From contig JAFSDS010000004.1 of assembly GCA_017436125.1 (NCBI GenBank), positions 1-44,552 on the forward strand: a stretch of DNA of 44,552 nucleotides, read 5' to 3'. Origin of the DNA: Oscillospiraceae bacterium (GTDB taxonomy: Bacteria; Bacillota; Clostridia; Oscillospirales; Ruminococcaceae). This document shows positions 11,225-39,990 of this stretch, piece after piece (the stretch's first letter is position 1; each line of letters starts with the position of its first letter). The notes beneath the pieces are model-generated. The model had not been told where the DNA came from. It made no database searches and saw nothing but the letters and a program-made list of their open reading frames with translations. The position numbers and the translations under genes were made by a program.

Positions 11225-13738
11225 TTATTTCTGATTTCCTTTTGCGGTATCAATGGAAACGGCGCCTTCAAGGCCAAGGCGTTTTGCTGCTTCTTCGCGC
11301 ATTTTATATTTAAGTATCTTGCCGGCGGCATTCATGGGGAAGCCATCGACAAATTCGATATACTTTGGAACTTTATGACGCGCAAGGCGGCCTTTTATGT
11401 ATTCCGTCATTTCCTCAACGGTGATGCAGCCCGGTTTTTTAAGAACGATCTGGGCCATTATTTCTTCACCGTATTTTTTATCCGGAACACCGATGACCTG
11501 AACATCCTTTACCTTTTCGTGGGTATAGATAAATTCTTCTATCTCTTTCGGATAAATGTTTTCGCCGCCGCGGATTATCATATCTTTAAGACGTCCGGTA
11601 ATTTTATAAGTTCCGTCATCCTCGCGACAGGCAAGGTCGCCGGAATGGAGCCAGCCTTCGCTGTCGATAGTTCCGGCAGTGGCCTCCGGCATTTTATAAT
11701 AACCTTTCATAAGGTTATATCCGCGGGAACAGAATTCTCCGTTTGTTCCGTTGGGAACTTCCTCGCCGGTTTCCGGGTCGATTACTTTTGTTTCAACATG
11801 GGGAAGGTTATATCCAACGGTATAGCAGCGAAGGTCAAGAGGGTCTTCCCATGCGGAAGTGGTGCTTCCGGGAGAGGATTCTGTCTGGCCGTAAACGCTG
11901 ATGATTCCGCGCATATTCATTTCATCCGGCTGGGCTGCTCTCTTCATAAGCTCGGGAGGACAGCCCGCACCGGCCATGATACCGGTCCTCATATGTGAAA
12001 AATCGGTGTTTCGATAGTCCGGGTGGTTGAACATCGCAATAAACATTGTGGGAACGCCGTGGAATGCGGTTATGCGTTCCTGGTTTATGCAGGCAAGGGA
12101 ACTTTTTGCGGAAAAATAGGGAAGAGGACAAAGGGTTGTTCCGTGGGTCATTGCGGCGGTCATGGCAAGGACCATGCCGAAGCAGTGGAACATGGGGACC
12201 TGGACCATAAGGCGGTCCGCTGTGGAAAGTCCCATTCTGTCGCCTATGCATTTTCCGTTGTTGACAACGTTATAATGGGTGAGCATAACACCTTTGGGAA
12301 ATCCGGTGGTGCCGCTGGTGTACTGCATATTGCATACATCGTCAAGGCGGACGGCGGATGCCATTCTTGCAATCTCCTCTTCAGAAACGCTGTCTGCTCT
12401 TGACATGGCTTCGTCAAAGTCAAGGCAGCCGGGCTGTTTGAATCCAACAGTAATTACGTTGCGAAGGAAGGGGAGCTTTTTGCAGTGGAGAGGAGAGCCG
12501 GCCTTTGTATTCTTTATTTCCGGACAAAGTTCGTTGATGATCTGCGCATAGTTTGAATCAAGGCAGGATTCGACCATAACAAGGGTATGGGTATCGGACT
12601 GGGAAAGAAGATATTCAGCCTCGTGGATCTTATATGCGGTATTTACGGTGACGAGAACGGCGCCGATCTTTGTTGTGGCCCAGAAGGTGATGTACCATGC
12701 GGGAACGTTGGTTGCCCAGATGGCGACTTTGCTTCCGGCTTTAACGCCCATGGAAACAAGAGCCCTTGCAAAGCGGTCAACGTCCTCGCGGAATTCGGAA
12801 TAGGTTCTTGTATAGTCAAGGGTAGTATAGCGGAAAGCATACTGGTCCGGGAATTCATCACAGAGTTTATCAAGTACCTGGGGGAATGTAAGATCAATAA
12901 GAGAATCCTTTTTCCAGATAAACTGGCCGGAATGGTCAAAGTTATAATAAAGACTGCGTTTTTTGCCGCGGGGGCTTTCAAAGCGGCTCATATAGTTTAC
13001 AAAATGGGGGAAGATTACCTCATATTCCTGAAGGTCCTCCATCCATTCAGGCTTCCATTCAAGGGAGATGAATCCGTTATAGTCAATGGAAGAAAGGGCG
13101 CGCATCATTTCGTCGATGGGCATATTGCCCTCGCCGATGAGATTATATGTATCCGCATCGTCAGAATCGCGAAGATGAACATGTTTTACGTATGCTCCGA
13201 GGTTGCGGATAGTTTTATCTGCGGATTCTCCGTTAGTGCGGTAGGGATGATGCATATCCCAAAGCGCAGCAAGATTATCGGATGCGAAATCATTGAGAAG
13301 GTCACGAAGACGGCCGGTATCGGAATAGATGCCGCTTGTTTTCATAAGAAGAACAACATCAACTTCTTCTGCGTATGCAATTATATCCGCAACAGAAGCT
13401 CTTACGGTTTCTTCGTTGTCATTGAGCGCAACAGCACAGACATAAGGAACCTTGAGATTATGGGCGATATCGATGATTTCCTTCATGGTTTCGGTATTTC
13501 CGGGAACGGAGATATCACAGGAAGTATCAAGGCATGGAATTTTTATTCCGCGTTCGCGAAGAGTTCTTGCGGTTGCGGCGGTGTTGTATTTATGGAGCGG
13601 GCAGCCTTTTTCGGTAAAATCCGGGCGCTTTTGGATATTATAAAGCTCAATACCGGAAAAATGCATTTCATCGGCAATGTCGATTATTTCATCAAAACCA
13701 AGTTCTGCCCAACCTCTTGTTGAGAAAGAAAGATTCAT
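11225..13738 (-). CDS. TIM-barrel (sugar-phosphate isomerase-like) + acyl-CoA ligase fusion
   Basis: 837 residues. Residues 1-255 are a xylose-isomerase-like/AP-endonuclease-2 TIM barrel. D161 and H164 (WDMHHP), H188 (KHVHLRD) and E227 (SLEWKP) match the usual metal ligands, but the first Glu of the site is replaced by K133 (LLMKTSG). Residues about 275-825 are an AMP-forming acyl-CoA synthetase: YTSGTTGFPKG at 473-483, VYGQTESSP, WLHSGDLA, GRLKDMIIRGGENIYP, and the C-terminal Lys in AAGKILK. The ligase half resembles FadD-like ligases and probably adenylates a carboxylic acid and forms its CoA thioester. The start overlaps the stop of the LeuA-like gene (ATGA), so the two are translationally coupled. 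Substrates of either half are unknown. Confidence 0.85.
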   Translation of the reverse strand: MNLSFSTRGWAELGFDEIIDIADEMHFSGIELYNIQKRPDFTEKGCPLHKYNTAATARTLRERGIKIPCLDTSCDISVPGNTETMKEIIDIAHNLKVPYVCAVALNDNEETVRASVADIIAYAEEVDVVLLMKTSGIYSDTGRLRDLLNDFASDNLAALWDMHHPYRTNGESADKTIRNLGAYVKHVHLRDSDDADTYNLIGEGNMPIDEMMRALSSIDYNGFISLEWKPEWMEDLQEYEVIFPHFVNYMSRFESPRGKKRSLYYNFDHSGQFIWKKDSLIDLTFPQVLDKLCDEFPDQYAFRYTTLDYTRTYSEFREDVDRFARALVSMGVKAGSKVAIWATNVPAWYITFWATTKIGAVLVTVNTAYKIHEAEYLLSQSDTHTLVMVESCLDSNYAQIINELCPEIKNTKAGSPLHCKKLPFLRNVITVGFKQPGCLDFDEAMSRADSVSEEEIARMASAVRLDDVCNMQYTSGTTGFPKGVMLTHYNVVNNGKCIGDRMGLSTADRLMVQVPMFHCFGMVLAMTAAMTHGTTLCPLPYFSAKSSLACINQERITAFHGVPTMFIAMFNHPDYRNTDFSHMRTGIMAGAGCPPELMKRAAQPDEMNMRGIISVYGQTESSPGSTTSAWEDPLDLRCYTVGYNLPHVETKVIDPETGEEVPNGTNGEFCSRGYNLMKGYYKMPEATAGTIDSEGWLHSGDLACREDDGTYKITGRLKDMIIRGGENIYPKEIEEFIYTHEKVKDVQVIGVPDKKYGEEIMAQIVLKKPGCITVEEMTEYIKGRLARHKVPKYIEFVDGFPMNAAGKILKYKMREEAAKRLGLEGAVSIDTAKGNQK

Positions 13739-15150
13739 GCGTTTTCCTCCTCATATACGATTTTATTGAGCGCATTGAGATAGGCAAGGATACTTGCGCC
13801 AACGATATCGGTGGAAGTTCCGCGGCCGGAATAAAGCTTTCCGCCGGAAAGCAGTTTTACAACGGTTTGTCCCATAGCTTCGCGGCCTTCGGTAACGGAC
13901 TGGATCTGGAAATCATCCAGTTCATAATGAAGACCGATAATCTGTTCAATGGCAAGGAATGAAGCGTCAATAGGGCCGTCGCCTATGCAGATACCCTCAA
14001 GAACGTGCTCGCCCTTCTGGATGCGAAGATGAGCGGAAGAGGTGAGGATATTGCTTGCGTTTATAACATAGCTCTGGAGCTTATAGGTGGGCGGAACCTG
14101 AAGAGCGGAGGATGCAACAATGGCATCAAGCTCTTTTGAACCAACTTTCTTTTTGAGCACGGCAATTTGCTTAAAAGCTTCAAAAACCTTTATTCCGTCC
14201 TCTTCGGAAAGCTCGTATCCAAGGCGTTCCGCAGCTTTGAGCACGGCGGTGATATCATCGTGCTCGGTGAGCACCCATTCGCCTTCCTCACGAACGCTGT
14301 CATCAAAAGGAGAGTTTTTGCTCTTTTCGGTGTGACAGATGCGCTCTATCTGGGCAATAACGCGGTTTATTTCCGCCATTCTTACGCTTCCGCAGGAATC
14401 AAAAGCATCGCCCTTTGCATCAAGGATTTTTGCGATTTTTCCAAGGCGGACGTTATCGGTTGCAACGGCGGTGGCTTTAACTTCGCCTGCTCCGCAGCGA
14501 ACAGCAGAAACTGCGCAGGAATCTGCCATGGAAAGTGCATCGGAACAGCTTACGCCGACACAAACTTCTTTAAGTTCCGGAACAGCGGCATAGATGTTTT
14601 CAATAAATGCGGAAAATTCATCCGGAAGCATAACTCCGGCGGTATCGCAGAAGGTAACGGTGGAAGCGCCTGCTTTGATGGCCGCTTTTACTGCGGATTC
14701 AAGGAAGGAAGCATCGCTTCTGGTGGCGTCGCCCGCAACAAATTCAACATCGGAGCAAAGAGCTTTGCATGCCGCAACGGATTTTTTTATTGCTTCAAGC
14801 ATGGCGTCGGGTTTTTTATGAGAGATATATTCCATCTGAACAGGGCTGGTTGGTACAGAAACCTGAAGACGGGGCTTCTTGGCTTCTTTAAGCGCGTTCC
14901 AGACCTTTTCCGCACCGTCATCATCAAGAGATACCGGAACGGCAACAACGGCGTTTTTAACGGCGCTGGCGATGGATTTTATAAGGAGGCTGTCAATTTT
15001 GAGATTTTCGATGGGGTGTAGTTCAATGACGGATACCTCAAGACGGTCCAGTAGTTTTGCAAGCTCGATCTTCTCGCGGAAGCTGAGGGTAAAGCCTGCA
15101 TTTTTACCGGTCTGTTTCATGGTTACGTCACTGATTCTGATGTTCCTCAT
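13735..15150 (-). CDS. Isopropylmalate-synthase-like protein with degenerate active site and LeuA regulatory domain
   Basis: 471 residues with the HMGL/LeuA barrel (about 1-280) and a C-terminal LeuA dimerisation/regulatory domain (about 350-465, with GICIGDGPIDASFLAIE and GRGTSTDIVGASILAYLNALN). The catalytic landmarks are missing. The usual LRDGxQ near the start is VTMKQTGK. The metal-binding HxHND is SCSD (GVSCSDALSMADS). The GxGERAGN loop reads TDNVRLGK. The regulatory half is well conserved. It may be a non-catalytic or altered-chemistry relative rather than a true 2-isopropylmalate synthase. It is first in a two-gene unit with the TIM-barrel/ligase fusion. An AAAGGAG site precedes the ATG, and an attenuator-like hairpin lies in the leader. 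Confidence 0.85.
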   Translation of the reverse strand: MRNIRISDVTMKQTGKNAGFTLSFREKIELAKLLDRLEVSVIELHPIENLKIDSLLIKSIASAVKNAVVAVPVSLDDDGAEKVWNALKEAKKPRLQVSVPTSPVQMEYISHKKPDAMLEAIKKSVAACKALCSDVEFVAGDATRSDASFLESAVKAAIKAGASTVTFCDTAGVMLPDEFSAFIENIYAAVPELKEVCVGVSCSDALSMADSCAVSAVRCGAGEVKATAVATDNVRLGKIAKILDAKGDAFDSCGSVRMAEINRVIAQIERICHTEKSKNSPFDDSVREEGEWVLTEHDDITAVLKAAERLGYELSEEDGIKVFEAFKQIAVLKKKVGSKELDAIVASSALQVPPTYKLQSYVINASNILTSSAHLRIQKGEHVLEGICIGDGPIDASFLAIEQIIGLHYELDDFQIQSVTEGREAMGQTVVKLLSGGKLYSGRGTSTDIVGASILAYLNALNKIVYEEENA

Positions 15151-15350: not shown

Positions 15351-16427
15351 TCAGTCACAAACTTTAAAGGTCCAGCCGAGAGTATCTTCAACACATCCGC
15401 TCTGGATTCCGTAAAGAGTGTCATAAAGTTTCTGTGCGGTGGGGCCGATTTTTCCTTCGTTGATAACAACTTTTTTCTCATCCCAGCCCATAGAACCAAT
15501 GGGGGAGATAACTGCAGCGGTGCCGCAGCCCCATGCTTCTTCAAGAGTTCCGTTTTCAGCGGCTTCAAAAAGCTCTTCTGCGGTAACAAGACGTTCCTCA
15601 ACTTCAATGCCCCAGCTTCTGATAAGATCGATGCAGCTCTTTCTTGTAACACCGGGAAGAATGGAACCGCTGAGCATAGGAGTGATAACTTTTCCGCCAA
15701 CTTTGAACATAACGTTCATAGCGCCTACTTCTTCAACGTATTTGCGTTCAACGCCATCGAGCCAAAGAACCTGAACATAGCCTTTTTTCTCCGCAACTTC
15801 GCCTGCGCGAAGAGAAGCGGCATAGTTTCCGCCGCATTTTGCAAAACCGGTGCCGCCGCGGACTGCGCGGACGTCGCGGCTTTCAACGTAGATATCAACG
15901 GGGCTCATGCCGTTGGGATAATAGGAACCAGAAGGGCTGCAGATGATGCAGAAAAGATAGGTTGCGGATGCGTGTACGCCAAGATGTGCGTCGGTTGCAA
16001 AGATAAAGGGTCTGATGTAAAGAGAAGTACCCGGATTATGGGGGACCCAGTCCGCATCAACGGTAACAAGTTCTTTGATAGCTTCAACAAAAACATCTTC
16101 CGGAACAGCGGGCATGCAAAGACGCTCGTTGGAATTCTGCATACGTTTTGCGTTTTCATAGGGGCGGAAAAGATGGATTGAACCGTCTTCCCAGCGGTAT
16201 GCTTTCATGCCTTCAAAAACTTCCTGTGCATAGTGGAGAACCATGCAGCTGGGGTCAAGTTCAAGGGGAGCATAGGGAACAATGCGGCCGTCATGCCAGC
16301 CTTTTCCGGCGGTGTAGTTCATAAGGAACATGTGGTCGCTGAAAGATCTTCCGAAGCCGAGTTTGCTTTCGTCAGCAGGTTTTACCTTCGGGTTTTCGGT
16401 ATATGTTACAGGAAAAGTGAATTCCAT
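15351..16427 (-). CDS. ilvE: Branched-chain amino acid aminotransferase
   Basis: 358 residues, the length of type II (eukaryote-like) branched-chain aminotransferases. It is a fold-type IV PLP enzyme: FEGMKAYRWEDGSIHLFRP near 71-90, the PLP lysine K197 in GTGFAKCGGNYAAS, and YVEEVGAMNVMF and GSILPGVTRKS further on. It interconverts Val/Leu/Ile and their 2-oxoacids with glutamate/2-oxoglutarate. It is the last gene of the T-box-driven ligase-ATPase-VOR unit, 21 bases after the gamma subunit. This places it after VOR in a route that would make the amino acid from the 2-oxoacid, or before VOR if the route runs the other way. Confidence 0.93.
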   Translation of the reverse strand: MEFTFPVTYTENPKVKPADESKLGFGRSFSDHMFLMNYTAGKGWHDGRIVPYAPLELDPSCMVLHYAQEVFEGMKAYRWEDGSIHLFRPYENAKRMQNSNERLCMPAVPEDVFVEAIKELVTVDADWVPHNPGTSLYIRPFIFATDAHLGVHASATYLFCIICSPSGSYYPNGMSPVDIYVESRDVRAVRGGTGFAKCGGNYAASLRAGEVAEKKGYVQVLWLDGVERKYVEEVGAMNVMFKVGGKVITPMLSGSILPGVTRKSCIDLIRSWGIEVEERLVTAEELFEAAENGTLEEAWGCGTAAVISPIGSMGWDEKKVVINEGKIGPTAQKLYDTLYGIQSGCVEDTLGWTFKVCD

Positions 16428-16448: not shown

Positions 16449-16991
16449 TCATTCCTGGGTATAGTTTTTGCCGATTTCAAGAGCCTTGATGTTGAGATCG
16501 ATAAGATCGGCATGTCTTGCGGGAACAGCGTTGCGAAGACCCTCTTCAAGATGTTCTTCGGAAACGCAACCGGTTTCTTTAACGATAGCGCCGAGAAGAA
16601 TCATATTTGCAAGGGTGGGTGCACCCATATCTTTTGCAAGCTGGGTTGCGGGGATGTAATAAACGTCAATGTCGGTGCGTTCAACTTTTCTTCCGATAAG
16701 AGCGGAATCAATGAAAAGCTTGCCGCCGGCAGCAACAAGGTTCTCATATTTATCAAGGGAAGGGTTATTCATGACCATAACAACGTTCGGATGGTCAACA
16801 ATGGGGGAACCGATGGGTTCATCGGAAAGGATAACAGTGCAGTTTGCAGTGCCTCCGCGCATTTCTGGACCGTAGGAAGGAAGCCAGCTGAGCTGGCGGT
16901 TTTCGGCAAGGCCGGCGTACGCAAGTACCTTACCTGCAAAAAGAAGACCTTGGCCGCCGAATCCGGCAATGATAATCTGATGATCAGCCAT
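16449..16991 (-). CDS. 2-oxoacid:ferredoxin oxidoreductase, gamma subunit
   Basis: 180 residues from the ATG at 16991; an in-frame GTG further upstream is less likely. Family marks are [22 protein letters not shown] at the start, [17 protein letters not shown], and NPSLDKY. This is the gamma domain that binds near the CoA site in the PFOR/KOR/VOR superfamily. The start overlaps the beta-subunit stop by 8 bases, showing tight coupling. It completes a four-subunit complex with the beta, alpha and ferredoxin subunits upstream. Confidence 0.9.
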
Positions 16992-17736
16992 TGTTTTCAC
17001 CGTCCTTATCACGATATACGCCGAGAGGATAATAGGGGATCATTTTTTCGTCGATCCATTCAAGAGCTTTTTGCGGAGTCATGCCCCAGTTTGTCGGGCA
17101 GGAGGAAAGGACCTCAACAAGGGAAAATCCTTTTCCGTCGATCTGATTCTGGAAAGCTTTTTTGATAGCTTTTTTTGCGTTGCGAACATTTTTTACGTTG
17201 TTGACGGTAACGCGTTCAAGATATGCGGGACCGTCAAGCTCACTGAGAAGTTCGCAAACGCGGATGGGGAAGCCCTGGGTTTCGGTGTTTCTTCCGTAAG
17301 GAGAAGTCTGGGTGACCTGTCCGGGAAGGGAGGTGGGAGCCATCTGGCCGCCGGTCATGCCGTAAATTGCGTTATTGATAAAGATGATGGTGATATTTTC
17401 GCCTCTTGCGGCGGAATGAACGGTTTCACACATACCGATGGAAGCAAGGTCGCCGTCGCCCTGATATGTAAATACGATTTTGCTCGGGTCGGAACGTTTT
17501 ACGCCGGTTGCAACAGCCGGAGCTCTTCCGTGTGCAGCTTCGACCATATCAACGGTAAAGTAATCATAGGCCATAACGGAGCAGCCTACGGGTGCGATAC
17601 CAATGGTTCTGCCTTCGATTCCAAGTTCATCGATGACTTCCGCAACAAGGCGGTGAACTATACCGTGGGTGCAGCCGGGGCAATAATGAAGAACGGCATC
17701 GGTAAGTGCTTTCGGTTTTTCAAAAACAACTGCCAT
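16984..17736 (-). CDS. 2-oxoacid:ferredoxin oxidoreductase, beta (TPP-binding) subunit
   Basis: 250 residues. CPGCTHG near residue 19 and GDGDLASIG followed by NNAIYGMTGGQ form the thiamine diphosphate/Mg site. The AHGRAPAVATGVKR segment is typical of VOR/KOR beta subunits. The complex interconverts a 2-oxoacid plus CoA with acyl-CoA, CO2 and reduced ferredoxin. Only 2 bases separate it from the alpha-subunit stop. Context with ilvE favours branched-chain 2-oxoacids, but aryl 2-oxoacids or 2-oxoglutarate cannot be excluded from sequence alone. Confidence 0.9.
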   Translation of the reverse strand: MAVVFEKPKALTDAVLHYCPGCTHGIVHRLVAEVIDELGIEGRTIGIAPVGCSVMAYDYFTVDMVEAAHGRAPAVATGVKRSDPSKIVFTYQGDGDLASIGMCETVHSAARGENITIIFINNAIYGMTGGQMAPTSLPGQVTQTSPYGRNTETQGFPIRVCELLSELDGPAYLERVTVNNVKNVRNAKKAIKKAFQNQIDGKGFSLVEVLSSCPTNWGMTPQKALEWIDEKMIPYYPLGVYRDKDGENNG

Positions 17737-17738
17737 GA

Positions 17739-18806
17739 TTATTCCTCTCCTTTCTCTGCGGCTTCTTTAATGCTCGCAAGAATGTCGTCAACGGTGGTGA
17801 TCATGCCGCCGACTCTGGTGCAGCCGTAAACGGGCTTTTTGCAGCGGATTGCAAGTTCGATATCTTCTTTCATCTGGCCCATGTTAAGTTCAACGGAGAT
17901 GAAGGATTTAACTTTATCTGCAGCCGCAAGAAGGGGCTTTTTGGGGAAGGGCCAAAGGGTGATGGGGCGGATCATACCGACCTTGATGCCCTGTTTTCTT
18001 GCCTCAAGAATAGCATTGCGGGAAACACGGGCGGTGATTCCGCAGGAAACGATGCAGATATCCGCATCCTCCATCATGAATTCTTCCCAAAGGCATTCCT
18101 CTTCTTCAATTTTCTTATATCTTTCATAACGTTCAAGGTTGATATCCTCAAGTTTTTTCGGAGAAAGATAAAGGGAGTTTACGATATGGTGTTCGCGTTT
18201 GCATTCGGTTCCGGTAACGGCCCAGTCTTTCGGGGTGCTATCGATTTCAACAGGATCCGGAAGAACAACAGGTTCCATCATCTGGCCCATGGTGCCGTCT
18301 GCAAGAAGCATGCAGGGCATGCGGTATTTATCCGCAAGCTCAAAGCCCTTAAGGGTCATATCAGCCATTTCCTGAACAGAAGCGGGAGCAAGAACGATTA
18401 CGTGAAAGTCGCCGTGGCCGGGGCCGCGGGTCGCAAGAAAATAGTCGGACTGGGAAGGCTGGATTCCGCCAAGGCCGGGGCCGCCGCGCTGAACGTTGAC
18501 GATAAGAGCCGGAAGGTCGGAACCTGCAAGATAGGAGATACCTTCGCATTTAAGTGCAATACCGGGGCTTGAAGAGGAGGTCATGGCTCTTTTGCCGGTG
18601 GCGGCAACGCCGTAAACCATGTTTATAGCTGCGATCTCGCTTTCTGCCTGAAGAAAAACGCCGCCGATTTTGGGCATTTTTTTGGACATATAGGCCGCAA
18701 CTTCGGTTTGGGGAGTAATGGGATAGCCAAAATAATGGCGGCATCCCGCAAGGATAGCTGCTTCGGCAAGGGCTTCGTTACCCTTCATTAAAACTTTTTC
18801 CTGCAT
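17739..18806 (-). CDS. vorB: 2-oxoacid:ferredoxin oxidoreductase, alpha subunit (VorB type)
   Basis: 355 residues from the ATG at 18806, which has AAAGGAGG upstream; an in-frame start 24 bases earlier would overlap the ferredoxin gene. The pyrimidine-domain marks are GNEALAEAAILAGCRHYFGY, PITPQTEV, FLQAESEIAAI, SSSSPGIALK and QRGGPGLG. The C-terminal domain carries ITLWPFP and VELNMGQM. It matches the VorB/KorA subunit commonly named 3-methyl-2-oxobutanoate dehydrogenase subunit VorB. It acts in the cytoplasm with the neighbouring subunits. Confidence 0.88.
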   Translation of the reverse strand: MQEKVLMKGNEALAEAAILAGCRHYFGYPITPQTEVAAYMSKKMPKIGGVFLQAESEIAAINMVYGVAATGKRAMTSSSSPGIALKCEGISYLAGSDLPALIVNVQRGGPGLGGIQPSQSDYFLATRGPGHGDFHVIVLAPASVQEMADMTLKGFELADKYRMPCMLLADGTMGQMMEPVVLPDPVEIDSTPKDWAVTGTECKREHHIVNSLYLSPKKLEDINLERYERYKKIEEEECLWEEFMMEDADICIVSCGITARVSRNAILEARKQGIKVGMIRPITLWPFPKKPLLAAADKVKSFISVELNMGQMKEDIELAIRCKKPVYGCTRVGGMITTVDDILASIKEAAEKGEE

Positions 18807-19044: not shown

Positions 19045-19728
19045 TTATGTGTTCAAATGATAATATAGCTTCTGAAGAGAAAGAGGGAAAAGGTTTTTAG
19101 CTCTGTCTTTCAGTTCTTCATAAAGTTTTTCGTCACAGCAGGTCATCTTGACCGGTATTCCAAGAGCTTTTGAAACTTCATCGGCATAGCTGATGCTTGA
19201 AAGCACGTCTTCAGCAGTAGTTTCCGGTCCAAGGTTGGTGTTGTTTACTATTCCGGTGAACGGAAGTTTGCAGGCCGCAACCATTTCATCAACAACTTCA
19301 AGCGTATCCGGGACATTTCTTGTAAGAGGTCTTGCCTTGTTGACAACAAGAAGCATCTCATAATCATTCTCCTCGATAATCGAAGGAACGTATCTTCCGA
19401 GGGCAAGGGCACCGCGGTCGTCACCTCCGATATCAAGAACGCCGTATTCGCTTCGGCTGGCGATAAGTTCATAAACTTCTTTCGGCATTGCGGGAGCATC
19501 AACATTGCTGTTCGCAAACTGTGAGCATATAAGCTTTATTCCGTGCTCACGGAAAACTTCCTCGCTGTCAAGGGTGCGGAAATACGGGTTTACGATATCA
19601 AGGTCCGCAACCGTTACCGGTAAACCTTGCTCACGCAAAAGCAGCGCATAGTTTACGGCGATATTTGTTTTTCCGCTGCCGTAATGTCCGGCAAAAAGGG
19701 TAAGTCTTTTAAAATCCAGGGAAAACAC
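19045..19728 (-). CDS. P-loop ATPase of the MinD/CobQ-like group
   Basis: 227 residues. A Walker A motif GHYGSGKTN lies at about 14-22, DLDIVNPYF near 43-51, and a Walker B-like LDIGGDDRGALALG near 97-110. The later NKARPLTRN motif resembles nucleotide-binding proteins of the ParA/MinD superfamily. It sits between the ligase gene and the VOR subunits, so it is made with them. A role in assembling or regulating the VOR complex is inference only. Confidence 0.8.
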   Translation of the reverse strand: MFSLDFKRLTLFAGHYGSGKTNIAVNYALLLREQGLPVTVADLDIVNPYFRTLDSEEVFREHGIKLICSQFANSNVDAPAMPKEVYELIASRSEYGVLDIGGDDRGALALGRYVPSIIEENDYEMLLVVNKARPLTRNVPDTLEVVDEMVAACKLPFTGIVNNTNLGPETTAEDVLSSISYADEVSKALGIPVKMTCCDEKLYEELKDRAKNLFPLSLQKLYYHLNT

Positions 19729-19741
19729 CTCCCTTTAAATA

Positions 19742-22030
19742 TTAAAGTTTGCTTCTTATAATCTTTCCGCTTGTTGTTTTGGGAAGTTCTGTACGGAACT
19801 CAACAATTCTTGGATATTTATAAGGAGCAGTGTGGGTTTTTACGTAATTCTGAATCTCTTTTTTGAGTTCTTCGGTGGGTTCGGTGCCTTTGGTAAGAAC
19901 GATGCAGGCTTTTACAACCTGTCCGCGAACTTCATCCGGAGCAGCGCAAACGCCGCATTCAAGAACATAGGGGAGTTCCATAATGACGTTTTCGATCTCG
20001 AACGGTCCGATGCGGTAGCCGGAGGACTTGATAAGGTCATCCGCTCTGCCGACATACCAGAAGAATCCGTCCTCATCCTTCCATGCAAGGTCGCCGGTGT
20101 GATAGAATCCGTCGTGCCAGGTTTCTGCGGTTTTTTCAGGGCTTCCGTAATACTGATAGCTGAGTCCGCAGGGAAGGCCATGGCTGATATCAATGCAGAT
20201 TTCACCGGTATCGCCGGCTGCGACCTCGTTTCCGTCAGCATCAAGAAGATGAACCTTATAAAGAGGGGAAGGCTTGCCCATGGAACCTATCTTATGGCTG
20301 CCGCCGGAAAGGTTGCCGATGATAAGGCTGGATTCGCTCTGACCAAAGCCTTCCATTATCTGAAGGCCGGTTGCGTTTTCAAACTGGCGGAAAACTTCCG
20401 GGTTAAGTGCCTCGCCGGCAATGGATGCGTGCTTGATGGAAGAAAGGTCAAATCTGCTAAGATCCTGTTTTATCAGCATGCGGTACATGGTGGGCGGAGC
20501 GCAGAAAGTGGTGATATGGTATTTTTCAAACATCGGAAGGATCTTTTCAGCGTCAAAACGATCAAAGTCATAGACGAAGATAGGTGCTTCGCAGAGCCAT
20601 TGACCGTAAAGCTTGCCCCAAAGGGATTTTGCCCAGCCGGTGTCGGAAATAGTAAGATGAAGTCCCTCCGGATCAACACAGTGCCAGTATTTTGCGGTGA
20701 TGAAGTGTCCGAGGGGATATTTATAGTTGTGCGCGGCGATTTTCGGATATCCGGAAGTTCCGCTGGTAAAGAACATGAGCATCGGGTCGTTTCCGCAGGG
20801 AGTTTCTTCATTTCTGCGGAAGGAACTGGAGAACATGGTGTAGTCTTCGTCAAAATTGAACCATCCTTCGCGGCTTCCGTTAACAATGATCTTGGTGTTA
20901 AGGGAAGGGCTGTTTGCGGCGGCTCTGTCAACAGCTTCGGCGGTTTCACCGTCAGCAGTGCAGATAATTGCGCTGATTCCTGCGGAATTAAAGCGGTATT
21001 CAAAGTCGTGCTCAAGAAGCTGGTTGGTTGCCGGAATGGCGATGGCGCCTATTTTATGAAGCGCAAGGATCGCAAACCAGAACTGATAATGACGTTTAAG
21101 AACAAGCATAACTTTGTCGCCTTTGCGGATACCGAGGGATTTGAAATAGTTTGCAGCTCTTCCGGATTCTTTCTTGATATCCTGGAAAGTAAAGCGACGC
21201 TCGGTTCCGTCGTTGGAAACATGGAGCATTGCAAGTTTATCCGGCTGTTCTCTGCCAAGGGCATCAACAACGTCGTATGCAAAGTTGAAATGTTCTTCAC
21301 CTTTAAAAGAGATTTTGGTGCAAAGACCGTTATTATCTTTTTCGGTTGTGATGAATTTATTATAAACACGCTCGGTATCGTCGGAACGGTGGGGAGCGTT
21401 TGGCATGATCTGTGCCTTATGGGTAGAAGTTTCCTTCTGGGGAGTAAGTACTATGGCATAGAAGATACAGTCTTTTCCGCCAACGGCAACCATTCCGTGT
21501 GGGGTGCTGCTGTCAAAATAAATGCAATCGCCTTTGTTAAGGATTTCGGTATGTTCGCCAATCTGGATCTTCATGCTGCCTTCAACAACAAGGTCGCATT
21601 CCTGACCGTCATGGGTGGTAAGGGCGATATCGCTGTGTTCCGCTTCTTCGCTGTATTTATTAATAACGAAAAGCGGTTCGGAAATACGGTTGCGGAAGTC
21701 GGAAGCCATGTTGTAATAAACCATTCCGTGAGCCTGTTCGATTTTCTGGCCCTGACCCGCTCTTGTAACAGTGTATCCGCGAAGCTTAGGGCTCTGGCCT
21801 TCGATGATATCGGTGATATCAACGCCGAGGCTTAGGGCACAGCGATAGAGGAAAGCAAAGTTAAGGTCGCTTTCGCCGGATTCGCAAAGAATATATTCTT
21901 CTTCGGAAACGCCGGTGCGCATAGCCATTTCCGCTGTGGAAAGTCCGGTTATCTCGCGAAGAGCACGGATACGTTCCGCCATTTCGCGGATTTTAAATTC
22001 AAGTCCGGTGATATGTTTTTCAGAATGCAT
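19742..22030 (-). CDS. XRE-HTH + cupin + acyl-CoA synthetase fusion (copy 1)
   Basis: 762 residues from the ATG at 22030, which has GGAGGAC upstream; longer readings run back into the T-box terminator. Residues about 14-72 form an XRE-type helix-turn-helix (LREITGLSTAEMAMRTGVSEEEY). Residues about 115-198 form a cupin (H140, E144, H178 as possible metal ligands). Residues about 225-762 are an AMP-forming acyl-CoA synthetase close to the medium-chain ACSM group: FFTSGTSGYPKIA, GFGQSES, FYHTGDLAW, GRADDLIKSSGYRIGP, and the terminal TSGKIIRSK with the catalytic Lys. It probably activates a free carboxylic acid to acyl-CoA. HTH-cupin heads occur in known transcription factors, so self-regulation or DNA binding by an enzyme is possible. 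It is first gene of the ATPase-VOR-ilvE operon and lies behind a T-box. Confidence 0.88.
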   Translation of the reverse strand: MHSEKHITGLEFKIREMAERIRALREITGLSTAEMAMRTGVSEEEYILCESGESDLNFAFLYRCALSLGVDITDIIEGQSPKLRGYTVTRAGQGQKIEQAHGMVYYNMASDFRNRISEPLFVINKYSEEAEHSDIALTTHDGQECDLVVEGSMKIQIGEHTEILNKGDCIYFDSSTPHGMVAVGGKDCIFYAIVLTPQKETSTHKAQIMPNAPHRSDDTERVYNKFITTEKDNNGLCTKISFKGEEHFNFAYDVVDALGREQPDKLAMLHVSNDGTERRFTFQDIKKESGRAANYFKSLGIRKGDKVMLVLKRHYQFWFAILALHKIGAIAIPATNQLLEHDFEYRFNSAGISAIICTADGETAEAVDRAAANSPSLNTKIIVNGSREGWFNFDEDYTMFSSSFRRNEETPCGNDPMLMFFTSGTSGYPKIAAHNYKYPLGHFITAKYWHCVDPEGLHLTISDTGWAKSLWGKLYGQWLCEAPIFVYDFDRFDAEKILPMFEKYHITTFCAPPTMYRMLIKQDLSRFDLSSIKHASIAGEALNPEVFRQFENATGLQIMEGFGQSESSLIIGNLSGGSHKIGSMGKPSPLYKVHLLDADGNEVAAGDTGEICIDISHGLPCGLSYQYYGSPEKTAETWHDGFYHTGDLAWKDEDGFFWYVGRADDLIKSSGYRIGPFEIENVIMELPYVLECGVCAAPDEVRGQVVKACIVLTKGTEPTEELKKEIQNYVKTHTAPYKYPRIVEFRTELPKTTSGKIIRSKL

Positions 22031-22055
22031 AAATGTCCTCCGATTCTTTTGGGAA

Positions 22056-22346
22056 AAACAAAAAAGCCCGTCCCAAAGAAATGATTCTTTGAGACGAGCT
22101 GTTAAAAGCAACAAACCCGCGGTACCACTCAAATTGCGTTTGCTATTGCAAAACACCGCTCATCGGGCTCAATTAAGCCCTAAGCATTAACGCAGCTGAC
22201 ACGGAAGAGTTCTACTTGCGAAAGACGCTTTCTTCTCTTCGGCTCGGAAGCTACAGCATAAAACGCTCATCATCGGCTCGCATCATCCGCCGACTCTCTT
22301 AAGATGAGGAATGCATTATGCACTCTTCGTCACAGCCTTTTATAAT
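22056..22346 (-). promoter_or_regulatory. T-box riboswitch leader (copy 1)
   Basis: On the - strand the T-box sequence AATTTGAGTGGTACCGCGGG lies at 22135-22116. Stem I has GACGAAG, the AGAGAG motif and a GGATGATG apical region. The leader ends in a terminator (stem at 22066-22080 / 22085-22099, then TTTTTT). Known T-boxes read uncharged tRNA and then allow transcription. The specifier-loop segment on the 3' side of stem I reads about ATGAG-CGTTT-TATGC; GTT (Val) and TTT (Phe) are both possible. I cannot settle the codon by eye. Confidence 0.92.
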
Positions 22347-22352
22347 AAAAGA

Positions 22353-22381
22353 ATCATAACACTTGATTATTTTATTGTCAA
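22353..22381 (-). promoter_or_regulatory. Promoter of T-box leader 1
   Basis: TTGACA (22381-22376), 17-base spacer, TATGAT (22358-22353) on the - strand, followed by the T-box leader. Confidence 0.8.
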
Positions 22382-22428
22382 GCAAAAAAACAAAAATTTA
22401 TATGTTTTAAGCTATGCTGCTGCGGATA

Positions 22429-24690
22429 TCAGAGCTTGTTTCTCTGAATCTTTCCGCTGATGGTTTTGGGAAGCTCGGTGCGGAACTCAACGATTCTCGG
22501 ATATTTATAGGGTGCGGTATGGCTCTTTACATAATCCTGAATTTCTTTTTTGAGTTCTTCGGTGCCTTCGGTGCCTTTAACAAGGACTATGCAGGCTTTA
22601 ACGACCTGTCCGCGGACTTCATCCGGAGCGGCACAAACACCGCATTCGAGAACGTAGGGAAGTTCCATGATGACGTTTTCGATTTCAAACGGTCCGATGC
22701 GGTAGCCGGAGGACTTGATAACGTCATCAGCTCTGCCGACATACCAGAAGTATCCGTCTTCGTCGCGCCATGCAAGGTCGCCGGTATGATACATTCCGTC
22801 ATGCCATGCGGCATCGGTCTTTTCCTGATCTCTATGATATCCGAGGAAAAGTCCGCAGGGAACGGATTTGTCGGTACGAACAACGATTTCGCCGTTTTCA
22901 CCGGTGGGAACGGGATTTCCGTCGGCGTCAACAATGTCGATATCATATCCGGGTGTGGGTCTTCCCATGGAACCGGGTTTAAGAAGTCCGCCGGTAAGGT
23001 TCGCAAGGGTAAGGGTGGTTTCCGTCTGGCCAAAGCCCTCTGCAATGCGAAGACCGGTAGCTTTTTCAAACTGATAGAAAACCTCGGGGTTAAGCGCTTC
23101 GCCTGCGGTGGTTGCATGCTCAATGGAAGAAAGATCGTATTTTGAAAGATCCTGTTTGATCAGCATGCGGTACATGGTGGGCGGTGCGCAGAAGGTGGTG
23201 ATATGATATTTTGCAAACATCGGAAGGATCTTCGATGCGTCAAATCTGTCAAAGTCATAGGTGAATACGGCACTTTCACAGAGCCACTGTCCGTAAAGCT
23301 TGCCCCAAAGAGCTTTTCCCCAGCCGGTATCGGAGATGGTGAAGTGAAGACCGTCCCTGCGTACCCAGTGCCAGTATTTTGCGGTAACATAATGGCCAAG
23401 GGGATATTTAAAGCTGTGGGTTGCGATTTTGGGATATCCGGTGGTGCCGGAAGTAAAGAACATAAGCATCGGATCGTCGCCGCAGGGAGTTTCTTCATTT
23501 CTGTGAAGGCGGCGGCTGAAAAGGGGATATTCGCTGCGGAAGTCATGCCATCCTTCTCTGGGATCACCGACGATGATCTTCGTGATAGGTTTATCATAAG
23601 CCTCACAGGCAAGTTCTGCCTGATGAGCAGTATCACCGACGGAGGTGCAGACTATTGCTTTTACGTCCGCGGCTTTATAGCGGTATTCAAAGTCATGCTG
23701 AAGAAGCTGATCCGTTGCGGGGATTACGATAGCGCCGATTTTATGAAGTCCGAGAATGGAGAACCAGAATTCAGCATGGCGTTTAAGAACAAGCATAACA
23801 GTATCACCCTTTTTGATGCCAAGGGAGGTAAAATAGTTTGCTGCCTGTGCGGATTTTTCCTTCATATCGCGGAAGGTATAGATGTTTTCTGTAAGATCGT
23901 TTGCAACATGTACCATTGCAACTTTATCCGGCTGCTGACGGCCAAGCTCATCGACTATATCGAATGCAAAGTTAAACTGGTCGGTATTGGTAAAATTGAG
24001 TTTTACCGGGTAACCGTTTTCGTCGGTTTCCGCCTTGACGAAGGAGTTTGCAATAAGGTCGTGTTCGTGAGTGGGCTTTTTTGGGATGATATAATCTGCC
24101 TTTTCGGGCTTTTTATCCGCCATTACCATTGCAAGGAAGGTGCAGTCCTCTCCGCCGACGGCAATCATTCCGTGAGGAGTGGAGGATTTATAGAAGATGC
24201 TGTCGCCTTCGTTAAGAATCTCAGTATGTTCACCGACCTGAACTTTAAGGGAACCTTTTATAACAAGGTCAAATTCCTGTCCGGCATGGGTTGCGGTATG
24301 AATTGGTTTATCCTGAAGATCCTCAGAATATTTATAAGTTACCCAGTAGGGTGCGCCAAGTTTTCTTTGGAACATAGGAGCAAGGTTCTGGATGCTGATG
24401 CCGTCCTCTTCTGCGGTAACAAGACCTTCACCTTTTCTGGTTACGGTATAATGAGAAAGGTTTGAAGCATGTCCCTCAAGAAGCTCGGTAAGCTCAAGGC
24501 CAAAGGCAAGGGCACATTTATGAAGGAAAGAGAAAGGAAGATCAACTTTTCCGCTCTCATAAATTCGATATGTTTCCTCCGAAACATCGGTGCGTTCAGC
24601 AAGCTGGGCGGGGGAGTAACCGACTATCTCACGCATTTCACGAATTCGCTGGGTGATCTCCATAAGTGATTGTTCTGTGAGTTTTTTCAT
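22429..24690 (-). CDS. XRE-HTH + cupin + acyl-CoA synthetase fusion (copy 2)
   Basis: 753 residues from the ATG at 24690; upstream in-frame codons lie in the T-box. It has the same domain order as copy 1. The XRE-HTH (REMREIVGYSPAQLAERTDVSEETY) is at about 18-55, followed by the cupin (THAGQEFDLVIKGSLK, then TPHGMIAVGG). The ACSM-like ligase has FFTSGTTGYPKIA, GFGQTET, MYHTGDLAW, GRADDVIKSSGYRIGP and a terminal SGKIQRNK. The ligase part is very close to copy 1 over long runs near the C terminus, while the N-terminal halves differ more. It has its own promoter and T-box and may be monocistronic, with possible read-through into the copy 1 leader. The pair looks like a duplication that has kept separate amino-acid control. 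Confidence 0.88.
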   Translation of the reverse strand: MKKLTEQSLMEITQRIREMREIVGYSPAQLAERTDVSEETYRIYESGKVDLPFSFLHKCALAFGLELTELLEGHASNLSHYTVTRKGEGLVTAEEDGISIQNLAPMFQRKLGAPYWVTYKYSEDLQDKPIHTATHAGQEFDLVIKGSLKVQVGEHTEILNEGDSIFYKSSTPHGMIAVGGEDCTFLAMVMADKKPEKADYIIPKKPTHEHDLIANSFVKAETDENGYPVKLNFTNTDQFNFAFDIVDELGRQQPDKVAMVHVANDLTENIYTFRDMKEKSAQAANYFTSLGIKKGDTVMLVLKRHAEFWFSILGLHKIGAIVIPATDQLLQHDFEYRYKAADVKAIVCTSVGDTAHQAELACEAYDKPITKIIVGDPREGWHDFRSEYPLFSRRLHRNEETPCGDDPMLMFFTSGTTGYPKIATHSFKYPLGHYVTAKYWHWVRRDGLHFTISDTGWGKALWGKLYGQWLCESAVFTYDFDRFDASKILPMFAKYHITTFCAPPTMYRMLIKQDLSKYDLSSIEHATTAGEALNPEVFYQFEKATGLRIAEGFGQTETTLTLANLTGGLLKPGSMGRPTPGYDIDIVDADGNPVPTGENGEIVVRTDKSVPCGLFLGYHRDQEKTDAAWHDGMYHTGDLAWRDEDGYFWYVGRADDVIKSSGYRIGPFEIENVIMELPYVLECGVCAAPDEVRGQVVKACIVLVKGTEGTEELKKEIQDYVKSHTAPYKYPRIVEFRTELPKTISGKIQRNKL

Positions 24691-24739: not shown

Positions 24740-25020
24740 AAACCCGTCCCAAGAAAAAATCTTGAGACGGGTAAAAATACAAAATCTTTATCCGCGGTAC
24801 CACTCAAATTGCAGTTGATACTGCCGCCTTCAGGCTCCAGCAAGCCCTATCCCTTAACGCGGGCAAACGGGGAACGTCTACTGAGTAAAAAAACAACCTT
24901 TCGGGCTCCCGGCTCAGAAGTGATAAGTCAATGGTCCAGCGCCCGCCGGTTTACACCAGCCACCGGCTCTCTTTGCGTCCGCAGTTCCGACCGTCTTCGT
25001 CAAAGCCTTTAACAATATAC
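24740..25020 (-). promoter_or_regulatory. T-box riboswitch leader (copy 2)
   Basis: On the - strand the sequence AATTTGAGTGGTACCGCGG lies at 24810-24792, identical over 19 bases to the copy 1 leader. Stem I has GACGAAG, AGAGAG and the apical GGTGGCTGGTG. The terminator stem is ACCCGTCTCAAG / CTTGGGACGGGT (24772-24742), then T-rich. The specifier-loop area reads about GCG-CTG-GACC, so CTG (Leu) or TGG (Trp) are candidates. This differs from copy 1, so the two leaders may sense different tRNAs. Confidence 0.92.
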
Positions 25021-25091: not shown

Positions 25092-26033
25092 TTACTGCAG
25101 TCTTGTTATCACAAGATGAGCGGAAACAGGTTCAGTTCCACCTGCGTTTGGCGTAAGAGTAAGTGCCGTGGCTGTTCCTTCGGGGTTGCGTACCGTGAGA
25201 ACGGAATCTGCAACAGAAGTTTCAATAAGGGCCGTTCCTACGATCTGGGATGTTCCCGTTGCACGGCCGACTACGGTATATGGGATTTCCGCTCCGTTAA
25301 GGGTAAGAACGAGCTGACCGGCTTCATCAGCACTTGCCTGAAAACTGACCTGATAAACACCTATATCGGGAAGTGTGAACGAAGAAGCAGTTGCTCTTAC
25401 AATACCGTCTCCGCTGTTGGGACCATCCTGAGGAAATTCAACATCCGAACCGGCAGCGATAGGTGCAGTGTTGTCGCCGGGCATAATTGCATAAAAATCT
25501 GCAAAACCAAGAACGGTTCCGGCCGGTCCCTGCGGTCCTTGCGGGCCAACCGGACCCTGAGCGCCGGTTTCACCGGCAGGTCCCTGCGGACCAACCGGTC
25601 CGGTCAAACCAATGGGACCCTGGGGTCCGGTAGCGCCCGTTGCGCCGATAGCTCCGGCAGGCCCCTGCTCACCCTGAGGTCCCTGAGGTCCTGCGGGTCC
25701 GGTCAAACCGATGGGACCCTGGGGTCCGGTGGCGCCCGTTGCACCAATAGCACCGGCGGGTCCCTGTTCGCCTTGAGGTCCCTGAGGACCCTGTGGACCT
25801 TGCGGTCCGACCGGACCCTGAGCACCGGCAATACCTTGCGGACCTTCCGGACCCACTGCTCCCGGAATACCTTGCGGACCTCTTGGACCAATAGGCCCCT
25901 GTGGGCCGGTGGCGCCGCCGCTTCCGCCGTTACTGCAGCAGCATGCAACATATGGTGCCGCGTATGGTCTATAGCGGTTAAATCCACCCTGAAAATCCAT
26001 ATCCTGATTTTCAGAGCATTTATATCTGTTCAT
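25092..26033 (-). CDS. Collagen-like triple-helix repeat protein
   Basis: 313 residues. A short N-terminal region (1-39) contains a CCC cluster. About 45 Gly-X-Y triplets (40-174) follow, rich in GPQ, GAT and GPI. A C-terminal beta domain of about 137 residues (from [11 protein letters not shown] to VITRLQ) has the pattern of BclA-type trimerising (TNF-like) heads of exosporium or surface filaments. There is no standard signal peptide, as in many spore-surface collagen-like proteins. AAGGAGG precedes the ATG. Likely role: a surface or spore-coat filament. I see no clear terminator before the T-box 2 promoter. Confidence 0.85.
25597..25794 (-). repeat. Two tandem 99-base repeats inside the collagen-like gene
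   Basis: The stretch beginning GGTCCGGTCAAACC at 25597 recurs at 25696 with few changes, a period of 99 bases (33 residues, 11 Gly-X-Y triplets). Such in-frame duplication is the usual way the collagen region changes length between strains. Confidence 0.85.
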
Positions 26034-39719: not shown

Positions 39720-39990
39720 ATTGTATTATTAAGGTAAGACAGGACCTTGGAAAATAAAGATTTTAATGGCCTGTCTGGTTCTATTTTTTTAAACCTATTT
39801 GTCCTTGGCACCCCGGTTTAGGGAAATCATCAAACGGCTTAAAACAGCTCCACGGGAATCACACCCCCGGCAGGTTCTCTGCCGGCTGCCCTCATTGCCT
39901 GCGACGCTTCTAACGCTCGGACTGTGACTGGACAGGAGTTTCATTATCTGTGTAAGATGAATGTGTTTTTAATTTGTGTAACCGTTCTCC
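39720..39990 (-). ncRNA. GC-rich structured non-coding block, possible RNA or oriT-like site
   Basis: No ORF of note. The block is much more GC-rich than its surroundings and carries a perfect hairpin CCGGCAG / CTGCCGG around 39878-39896 and a second pairing GACAGG (39738-39743) with CCTGTC (39770-39775). It lies in the leader position of the mazF-xis-int unit. I cannot assign it to a known RNA class. A regulatory leader or an origin of transfer are both possible. Confidence 0.35.

Follow-up and report, generated by a model that had tools for sequence, protein, structure and literature searches.

Tandem helix-turn-helix, cupin and acyl-CoA synthetase fusions behind isoleucine and valine T-boxes: candidate enzymes for branched-acid assimilation in a Ruminococcaceae bacterium

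Here we report two tandem genes in a 44,552-nucleotide stretch of DNA from an Oscillospiraceae bacterium of the family Ruminococcaceae (GenBank assembly GCA_017436125.1, contig JAFSDS010000004.1, positions 1 to 44,552; hereafter the window). Each gene encodes a helix-turn-helix (HTH) domain, a cupin and a complete acyl-coenzyme A (CoA) synthetase in one chain, and each stands behind a T-box RNA leader, specifying isoleucine for gene 1 and valine for gene 2. We propose, with a probability of roughly 0.7, that the pair serves a T-box-controlled assimilation of branched acids into isoleucine and valine, each ligase carrying what looks like a former transcription-factor module. The window is one contig (C20) of a genome of 1.75 Mb in 83 contigs, 86.8% complete, whose owner is an anaerobe, probably living in the gut.

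In the proposed pathway, branched short-chain acids would be taken up from outside, and uncharged tRNA-Ile or tRNA-Val would open the matching T-box and switch on that ligase. The AMP-forming ligases would then make 2-methylbutyryl-CoA (gene 1) or isobutyryl-CoA (gene 2), to which an adjacent 2-oxoacid:ferredoxin oxidoreductase of the VOR type would add CO2 with reduced ferredoxin (reductive carboxylation), and an adjacent branched-chain amino acid aminotransferase (BCAT) would transaminate the product to isoleucine or valine. Sequence evidence backs the first step with its specificity; the substrates and the direction are what we infer.

Which amino acid each ligase serves can be read from its RNA leader. 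Both leaders match the T-box covariance model RF00230 over its full length and carry a specifier and an antiterminator (Table 1), which bears out the preliminary description of this DNA in placing T-boxes before the genes, though neither reaches the Rfam gathering score of 93; three further T-boxes of the same genome, including those before valS-like and alaS-like genes, miss it as well. The genome holds 11 convincing T-boxes and two further candidates (E 0.19 and 0.88). We calibrated the specifier column on eight other T-box genes of this genome whose products were recognised from translation, and read UUC for PheS, UAC for TyrS, CUC for LeuS, UGG for TrpB, GUA for ValS, GCC for AlaS, UGC for CysE and AUG for a MetN-like ATPase; one more T-box (L079) precedes an ABC-type binding protein. 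The gene 2 specifier is thus the same as that before the genome's own valS-like gene (L081).

The same pairing recurs in relatives, whose specifiers were read by pattern, sometimes with extra candidates. A scan of contigs from named genomes gave at least 594 stretches with at least 587 relatives, of which the best 80 were kept. First copies in these 80 loci show AUC alone in 53 cases, AUC with another candidate in 9, GUA with another candidate in 2 (both single-copy) and an unread T-box in 9; second copies, present in 51 loci, show GUA or GUC in 35 and an unread T-box in 5, and copies lacking a motif are counted below. No description of T-box control of such ligases was found in the open-licence literature searched, and the main text of a 2008 T-box survey (PMC2494555) is without the terms acyl-CoA, CoA ligase, acetyl-CoA, ferredoxin, fatty acid and AMP-binding.

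The specifier is matched by a single residue of the ligase. Column 458 is the sole ligase column that fully separates the labels, with Gly in all 63 Ile-labelled and Ala in all 35 Val-labelled fused proteins of a comparison in which 28 further fused proteins were unlabelled; the other fully separating columns sit in the HTH-cupin and the linker. Residue 458 comes right after a DTGW motif; its counterpart in the alignment with E. coli Acs is V310, which we take to line the acyl pocket. Among all fetched ligases the rule is free of exceptions (Gly with Ile 89/89, Ala with Val 38/38) in the 127 of 196 rows where both are readable, although the family, named and phylum loci that supplied them may hold the same species twice. 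These labels rest on Ile or Val codons only, no row received both, and the window's own two genes lie outside the 196 rows; the 69 rows left out comprise 54 that lack both a T-box motif and an Ile or Val specifier, 12 whose T-box was unread and 3 that carry a Val specifier and lack a 458 residue.

Forms in which the HTH-cupin and the ligase are separate genes obey the 458 rule too, as in locus L058 (Ala, GUA), and four Bacteroidota ligases have Gly at this position. A more distant group of split-type ligases (L057, L058, L059-L062 and L069) carries DSGWAK, hence Ala; L058 is the only one with a readable T-box. In a ligase tree calculated without residues 440-475 the label changes 8 times, part of which may reflect exchange or tree error, yet 122 of 122 ligases match the rule. 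The clade-separating columns of the HTH-cupin were also considered as marks of isoleucine versus valine sensing, an idea that is weakened by split Ile-type proteins, several of whose states are the 'Val' ones when the alignment is inspected by eye.

The architecture itself is well supported. HTH_19, Cupin_2, AMP-binding and AMP-binding_C score above their Pfam cut-offs in both chains, searched as open frames slightly longer than the 753- and 762-residue proteins, and HTH_3 and HTH_31 match gene 1 only. In both, an N-terminal XRE HTH followed by a C-terminal cupin gives the layout of an XRE-cupin transcription factor, and the ligase core motifs behind it are present. The preliminary description had claimed precisely this single-chain join of XRE HTH, cupin and complete synthetase with intact ligase motifs, and both points hold; so does its remark of knowing no described protein of this kind, in that we found no description of an HTH-cupin-ligase fusion in the open-licence literature searched. 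Its label "ACSM-like" fits the ligases as AMP-forming enzymes of the Macs/ACSM type but not in detail, the nearest solved relative being the archaeal Macs 3ETC, with human ACSM2A behind.

A true start downstream of the HTH-cupin is unlikely and was rejected. The ATGs lie 56 or 69 nucleotides behind the T-box leaders. Each is preceded by a stretch resembling a Shine-Dalgarno sequence, clearly so in gene 2 and more weakly in gene 1, and relatives show purifying selection on the codons of both HTH and cupin.

The relatives of the ligase part point to branched short-chain acids. Its best solved relative is Macs of Methanosarcina acetivorans (3ETC), which matches query residues 229-751 at E 9e-190. 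This protein resembles the window's ligases in the ligase domain and has Gly after DSGW, as in the Ile type, but is a 580-residue archaeal chain that is matched by the ligase part alone. The preferred substrate of this Macs is 2-methylbutyrate (PMC10455477). For both ligases the best NCBIfam model is MbcS (NF047394), which spans the ligase part only and whose namesake activates 2-methylbutyrate and isobutyrate (PMC10026030); at 437.7 and 424.6 bits against a cut-off of 850, neither ligase is assigned to this equivalog. MbcS of Staphylococcus aureus shares this ligase part but feeds membrane fatty acids, unlike the role proposed here. Judged by these relatives and by the T-box specifiers, the substrate of gene 1 is most likely 2-methylbutyrate and that of gene 2 isobutyrate.

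The genes next to the ligases are those of a VOR route, oxidoreductase subunits and a BCAT, and a VOR alpha gene lies in the flank of 42 of the 51 named loci with two HTH-cupins. The substrate class of the oxidoreductase rests on the alpha subunit, because beta and gamma pass Pfam only and stay below the NCBIfam cut-offs. Further along, the LeuA-like synthase could have a role in leucine synthesis and use 2-oxoisovalerate from VOR, or could be another synthase. A relative of the CbiA/MinD-like P-loop protein occurs in 57 of the 80 best named loci and travels with the oxidoreductase genes.

Table 1. Features of the tandem fusion locus (window positions; all on the reverse strand)
Feature	Position	Strand	Details
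Gene 1, HTH-cupin-acyl-CoA synthetase, Ile type (Gly458)	22429..24690	-	753 residues; frame open from ATG at 24690
Gene 2, HTH-cupin-acyl-CoA synthetase, Val type (Ala467, equivalent of 458)	19742..22030	-	762 residues; open from ATG at 22030
T-box leader of gene 1, specifier AUC (Ile)	24760..25012	-	cmscan 73.9 bits, E 3.8e-15, model 1-219
T-box leader of gene 2, specifier GUA (Val)	22087..22342	-	cmscan 86.6 bits, E 2e-18, model 1-219
HTH_19 of gene 1, residues about 14-73	24472..24651	-	Pfam 36 bits, cut-off 30.2
Cupin_2 of gene 1, residues about 133-188; H135, E139, H173	24127..24294	-	Pfam 45.2 bits, cut-off 27.2; triad columns aligned with HppE
Ligase domains of gene 1: AMP-binding 250-618, C-terminal 669-747	22450..23943	-	Pfam
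Gly458 codon of gene 1, residue after DTGW, aligned with E. coli Acs V310	23317..23319	-	
Ala467 codon of gene 2	20630..20632	-	
CbiA/MinD-like P-loop protein	19045..19728	-	PF01656 23.8 bits, just under cut-off 25.4
Two-[4Fe-4S] ferredoxin-like subunit, 70 residues	18820..19032	-	two CxxCxxCxxxCP motifs in translation
2-oxoacid:ferredoxin oxidoreductase alpha subunit, VorB type	17739..18806	-	NF005507 533 bits, cut-off 399
2-oxoacid:ferredoxin oxidoreductase beta subunit	16984..17736	-	PF02775 over cut-off
2-oxoacid:ferredoxin oxidoreductase gamma subunit	16449..17012	-	PF01558 over cut-off
BCAT, IlvE type II	15351..16427	-	TIGR01123 410.6 bits, cut-off 250
LeuA-like synthase	13735..15150	-	HMGL-like and LeuA_dimer; under cut-off of all 16 NCBIfam models matched

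Three other features of the window are recorded here for completeness. Another odd fusion, an 837-residue protein belonging to this gene cluster, joins a xylose-isomerase-like TIM barrel (AP_endonuc_2) to a complete acyl-CoA synthetase (11225..13738, reverse strand), and a relative of its TIM part is found in 26 of the 80 best named loci. Upstream of gene 1 lies a collagen-repeat protein (25092..26033, reverse strand) with a BclA_C-like end just under its cut-off. The sole Rfam match of the window over its gathering score is a pemK cis-regulatory RNA (39850..39947, 59.8 bits).

The direction of the pathway can be judged from the classical route, for which ilvC was searched as KARI (PF01450) and ilvD as ILVD_EDD_N. 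Neither has a match in the window's own genome, at its 86.8% completeness. KARI is found in 88 of 148 genomes of the family and was not found in the sample's one other genome of the same genus. Genomes with the tandem pair have ilvC in 4 of 51 named cases (1/7 plus 3/44) and in none of the 4 of the family sample, whereas among the remaining 144 family genomes 88 have it (p about 7e-12); the genomes are related and partly incomplete, and the p-values for ilvC are only indicative. T-boxes switch genes on when charged tRNA is scarce. We favour the assimilatory direction because of this T-box logic and the missing ilv genes. The reverse pathway, in which branched amino acids would be broken down to acids to gain energy, conflicts with the same logic, with a ligase of the ATP-spending AMP-forming type and with 47 of 51 named tandem genomes in which ilvC was not found, and we hold it to be highly improbable, even though VOR-type enzymes act on branched-chain 2-oxoacids in the amino acid oxidation of gut anaerobes (PMC13290082).

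Several observations weigh against the assimilatory proposal. Across the 148 family genomes the ligase and KARI are unassociated (57 with both, 39 with the ligase only, 31 with KARI only, 21 with neither; Fisher p = 1), so the ligase is no simple replacement of the classical route; that idea was rejected for the family and kept for the tandem pair only, and tandem and single-copy named genomes are themselves not clearly different in ilvC (4/51 versus 7/29, the latter 1/3 plus 6/26; p = 0.09). The genomes are mostly metagenome bins, which makes gene absences soft. No T-box motif was found before 7 of the 80 first and 11 of the 51 second copies, some of them near contig ends, nor in the stretch searched before 32 Ala-type ligase rows. 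Each of the two ligases scores only about half of what the MbcS model requires, enzymes of the VOR type can also work catabolically, and in both annotated Bacteroidota the pair is surrounded by genes for proline or arginine, the stretch containing no VOR gene. Finally, the HTH charge, taken up below, is indirect evidence on DNA binding.

The fusion is widespread. Titles of the best 80 named relatives are mostly Clostridia, Oscillospiraceae, Ruminococcaceae or similar metagenome bins, many from the ruminant gut, with few exceptions such as a Solobacterium bin; the closest of them is a bin contig from a roe deer rectum metagenome (L088, 95% identity). At least one fused gene is present in each of these 80 loci, and two HTH-cupins in 51. 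Of 131 HTH-cupins seen there, 126 are fused, 4 have no ligase seen behind them and 1 is apparently split, a set that is silent on the overall share of fused forms.

Within the family, 96 of 148 genomes match the query at E 1e-60 or better, many in the ligase part only (at most seven candidates were scored per genome, and at most two in the phylum search described below). Forty family regions were chosen among these matches, with preference for the strongest ones and for those interrupted by an internal stop; together with the window's two they hold 43 HTH-cupins, 20 fused in frame, 22 separate and one (L068) unassigned, a ratio that is no survey of fused to split forms. In the separate form the ligase match starts 19 to 231 nucleotides behind the HTH-cupin stop. 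In 37 of the 40 regions the ligase has an HTH-cupin in the same chain or encoded immediately ahead of it; two (L064, L074) have a ligase and no detected HTH-cupin, and the item in L063 is a short fragment. Codon recoding was considered for relatives with an in-frame TGA and was not seen in the ligase part of the five loci checked.

The association also reaches beyond the family. An even draw of 398 genomes of the phylum gave 93 with a match at E 1e-100, five of them with an uninterrupted full-length frame (G000, G063, G200, G287 and G462); of 18 loci from this search, 16 have a ligase with an HTH-cupin in its own chain or encoded upstream. Parabacteroides distasonis and Bacteroides finegoldii carry the pair (L190, 7004-9226; L191, 6989-9206) as two neighbouring genes, annotated 'cupin domain-containing protein' and 'AMP-binding protein', next to genes of proline or arginine biosynthesis. 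Two further Bacteroidota records, which carry no annotation, match both parts. Because the HTH-cupin and the ligase are adjacent in two phyla and have ended up fused, a physical or functional partnership between them seems likely.

Median ratios of nonsynonymous to synonymous substitution (dN/dS) are 0.089 for the HTH, 0.051 for the cupin, 0.19 for the linker and 0.060 and 0.038 for the two ligase parts, taken from 26 to 32 usable pairs of 43 and rough in value, with dS near saturation (medians 0.89 to 1.17). Could the HTH-cupin be a passive leftover of the fusion, or an aid to folding or oligomerisation with no sensing role? The poorly conserved linker behind it, together with the ligases in two of 40 regions that lack it, would suit such a reading, but the evolutionary rates of HTH and cupin are about as low as that of the catalytic part, the triad columns of the cupin are invariant (see below), and among two-copy genomes these domains give no sign of the exchange seen at the ligase ends. 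We therefore consider a passive module quite unlikely.

The contrast within the chain shows in the 32 genomes where both copies are labelled. At the ligase ends the two copies of a genome resemble each other more than permuted pairs do (z 7.0 and 9.6); the excess is smaller in the three middle ligase segments (z 2.9, 5.2 and 3.2) and hardly visible in the HTH (1.6) or cupin (2.0). All segments have increased identity at third codon positions (z 2.8 to 14.4), an effect that shared codon use would produce as well. Trees of the segments need 1 label change for the HTH, 1 for the cupin and 12, 6, 2, 3 and 14 for the five ligase segments, the larger numbers being inflated, as short conserved segments carry little tree signal. 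The HTH-cupin, and largely also the pocket segment, thus look to have stayed copy-specific while other parts were exchanged. Wholesale gene conversion was rejected, as the HTH-cupin tree and the ligase tree of the 98 labelled fused proteins need one label change each and exchange is visible in parts of the ligase only. That clean split is partly due to the pocket stretch or to the narrower set, since leaving out the stretch and adding 24 ligases gives the 8 changes noted above.

What the module now does is a separate matter. Like ErfA, PauR, PsdR and the E. coli proteins PuuR and SutR, it has an HTH followed by a cupin (PuuR has 185 residues, SutR 178), and a profile of the HTH-cupin finds both the HTH_3/cupin regulator 1y9q and the epoxidase HppE. 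Its HTH, however, has a median net charge of -5 (-10 to -2; n = 43, two Bacteroidota included), as against +3 (2 to 6) in 11 XRE-cupin controls; there is no overlap, all 43 being negative and all 11 controls positive, where the controls are PuuR, SutR and nine SutR relatives from plasmids chosen from 20 rows spread over the ranking, and PuuR and SutR are the only ones with a curated DNA-binding annotation. The recognition helix is also more acidic than in the controls, with overlapping ranges. In the cupin, H135, E139 and H173 are invariant in a 41-row alignment and kept in the two Bacteroidota, while the His-Glu-His triad is present, as aligned, in 2 of the 11 controls.

The promoter regions were compared for a palindromic operator. 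Among 86 regions of 104 nucleotides each, 59 have a sigma-A-like promoter, and the longest inverted repeat is slightly above that of shuffles (mean arm 6.05 versus 5.59). The most recurrent dyads are A/T runs, in 8 and 7 of the 86 regions where shuffles reach at most 5; of the ten dyads that recur most often, any that contains G or C is confined to at most 3 regions.

These data bear on a trigger enzyme, a protein whose HTH would have kept its DNA binding and which would control its own promoter or downstream genes by the level of substrate or acyl-CoA. Free-standing XRE-cupin proteins of Pseudomonas are local regulators that inhibit transcription of adjacent metabolic genes and have palindromic sites (PMC7901475). 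The HTH_19 match of both chains, the HTH_3 and HTH_31 matches of gene 1 and the conservation of the HTH codons speak for such a regulator. The charge of the HTH and of its recognition helix, and the rarity of non-A/T dyads in spite of A/T dyads somewhat above shuffles, speak against it; moreover, in the split form with a T-box the HTH-cupin lies behind the T-box in the direction of the ligase and is not independently promoted. We judge a trigger enzyme unlikely. Of the preliminary interpretation, the fusion, the motifs and the T-box control stand, but the suggestion of an enzyme that also binds DNA is not supported, DNA binding itself still being possible, and the context points instead to branched-chain acid activation for isoleucine and valine, to which the HTH-cupin is joined as a partner.

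More tentatively, the HTH-cupin may descend from a transcription factor, have lost its DNA binding and now work at the protein level, as a metal-containing sensor or regulatory subunit of the ligase; we favour a protein-level sensor because the HTH is acidic and the metal-type triad is kept. HppE (hydroxypropylphosphonate epoxidase; 1zz6, 4j1x) offers one comparison, with a colinear HTH-like part and cupin (E 1.2e-8) and aligned His-Glu-His columns. Its active-site lysine lies in the HTH-like part. An HppE-like oxidation by the cupin was considered on account of the aligned triad, but HppE is an oxidising enzyme whose lysine has no counterpart in the HTH-cupin alignment. We give even odds to a fuller scenario in which an XRE-cupin protein became a non-DNA-binding, metal-dependent subunit gating the ligase, initially encoded next to it by a gene of its own in at least two phyla and later fused, with T-boxes adding a second level of control and specifier and pocket residue together encoding the acid.

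Known systems share parts of this arrangement. The XRE-cupin inhibitors of transcription are free-standing, with a positive HTH in the 11 compared, whereas here the HTH is acidic and fused to, or encoded just before, an enzyme. BzdR likewise fuses an XRE domain to an enzyme fold, that of a shikimate kinase, but its enzyme part has lost catalysis (PMC3602430), a loss of catalytic residues not seen in the window's ligases, which keep their core motifs.

The chemistry, and enzymes with these substrates, are already known. Robinson and Allison reportedly described in 1969 the formation of isoleucine from 2-methylbutyrate in rumen anaerobes. The same chemistry, a reductive carboxylation of 2-methylbutyrate to isoleucine, is thought to operate in Methanobrevibacter ruminantium (PMC2812497). 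What differs here is a bacterial cluster with separate T-box-controlled ligases of Ile and Val type. The tandem fusions would thus provide paired candidate genes for turning branched acids into isoleucine and valine in many gut anaerobes, with an RNA leader from which the product amino acid can be read and a one-residue rule for the choice of substrate. They may also offer a clean case for following the fate of a DNA-binding regulator joined to the enzyme it was encoded beside.

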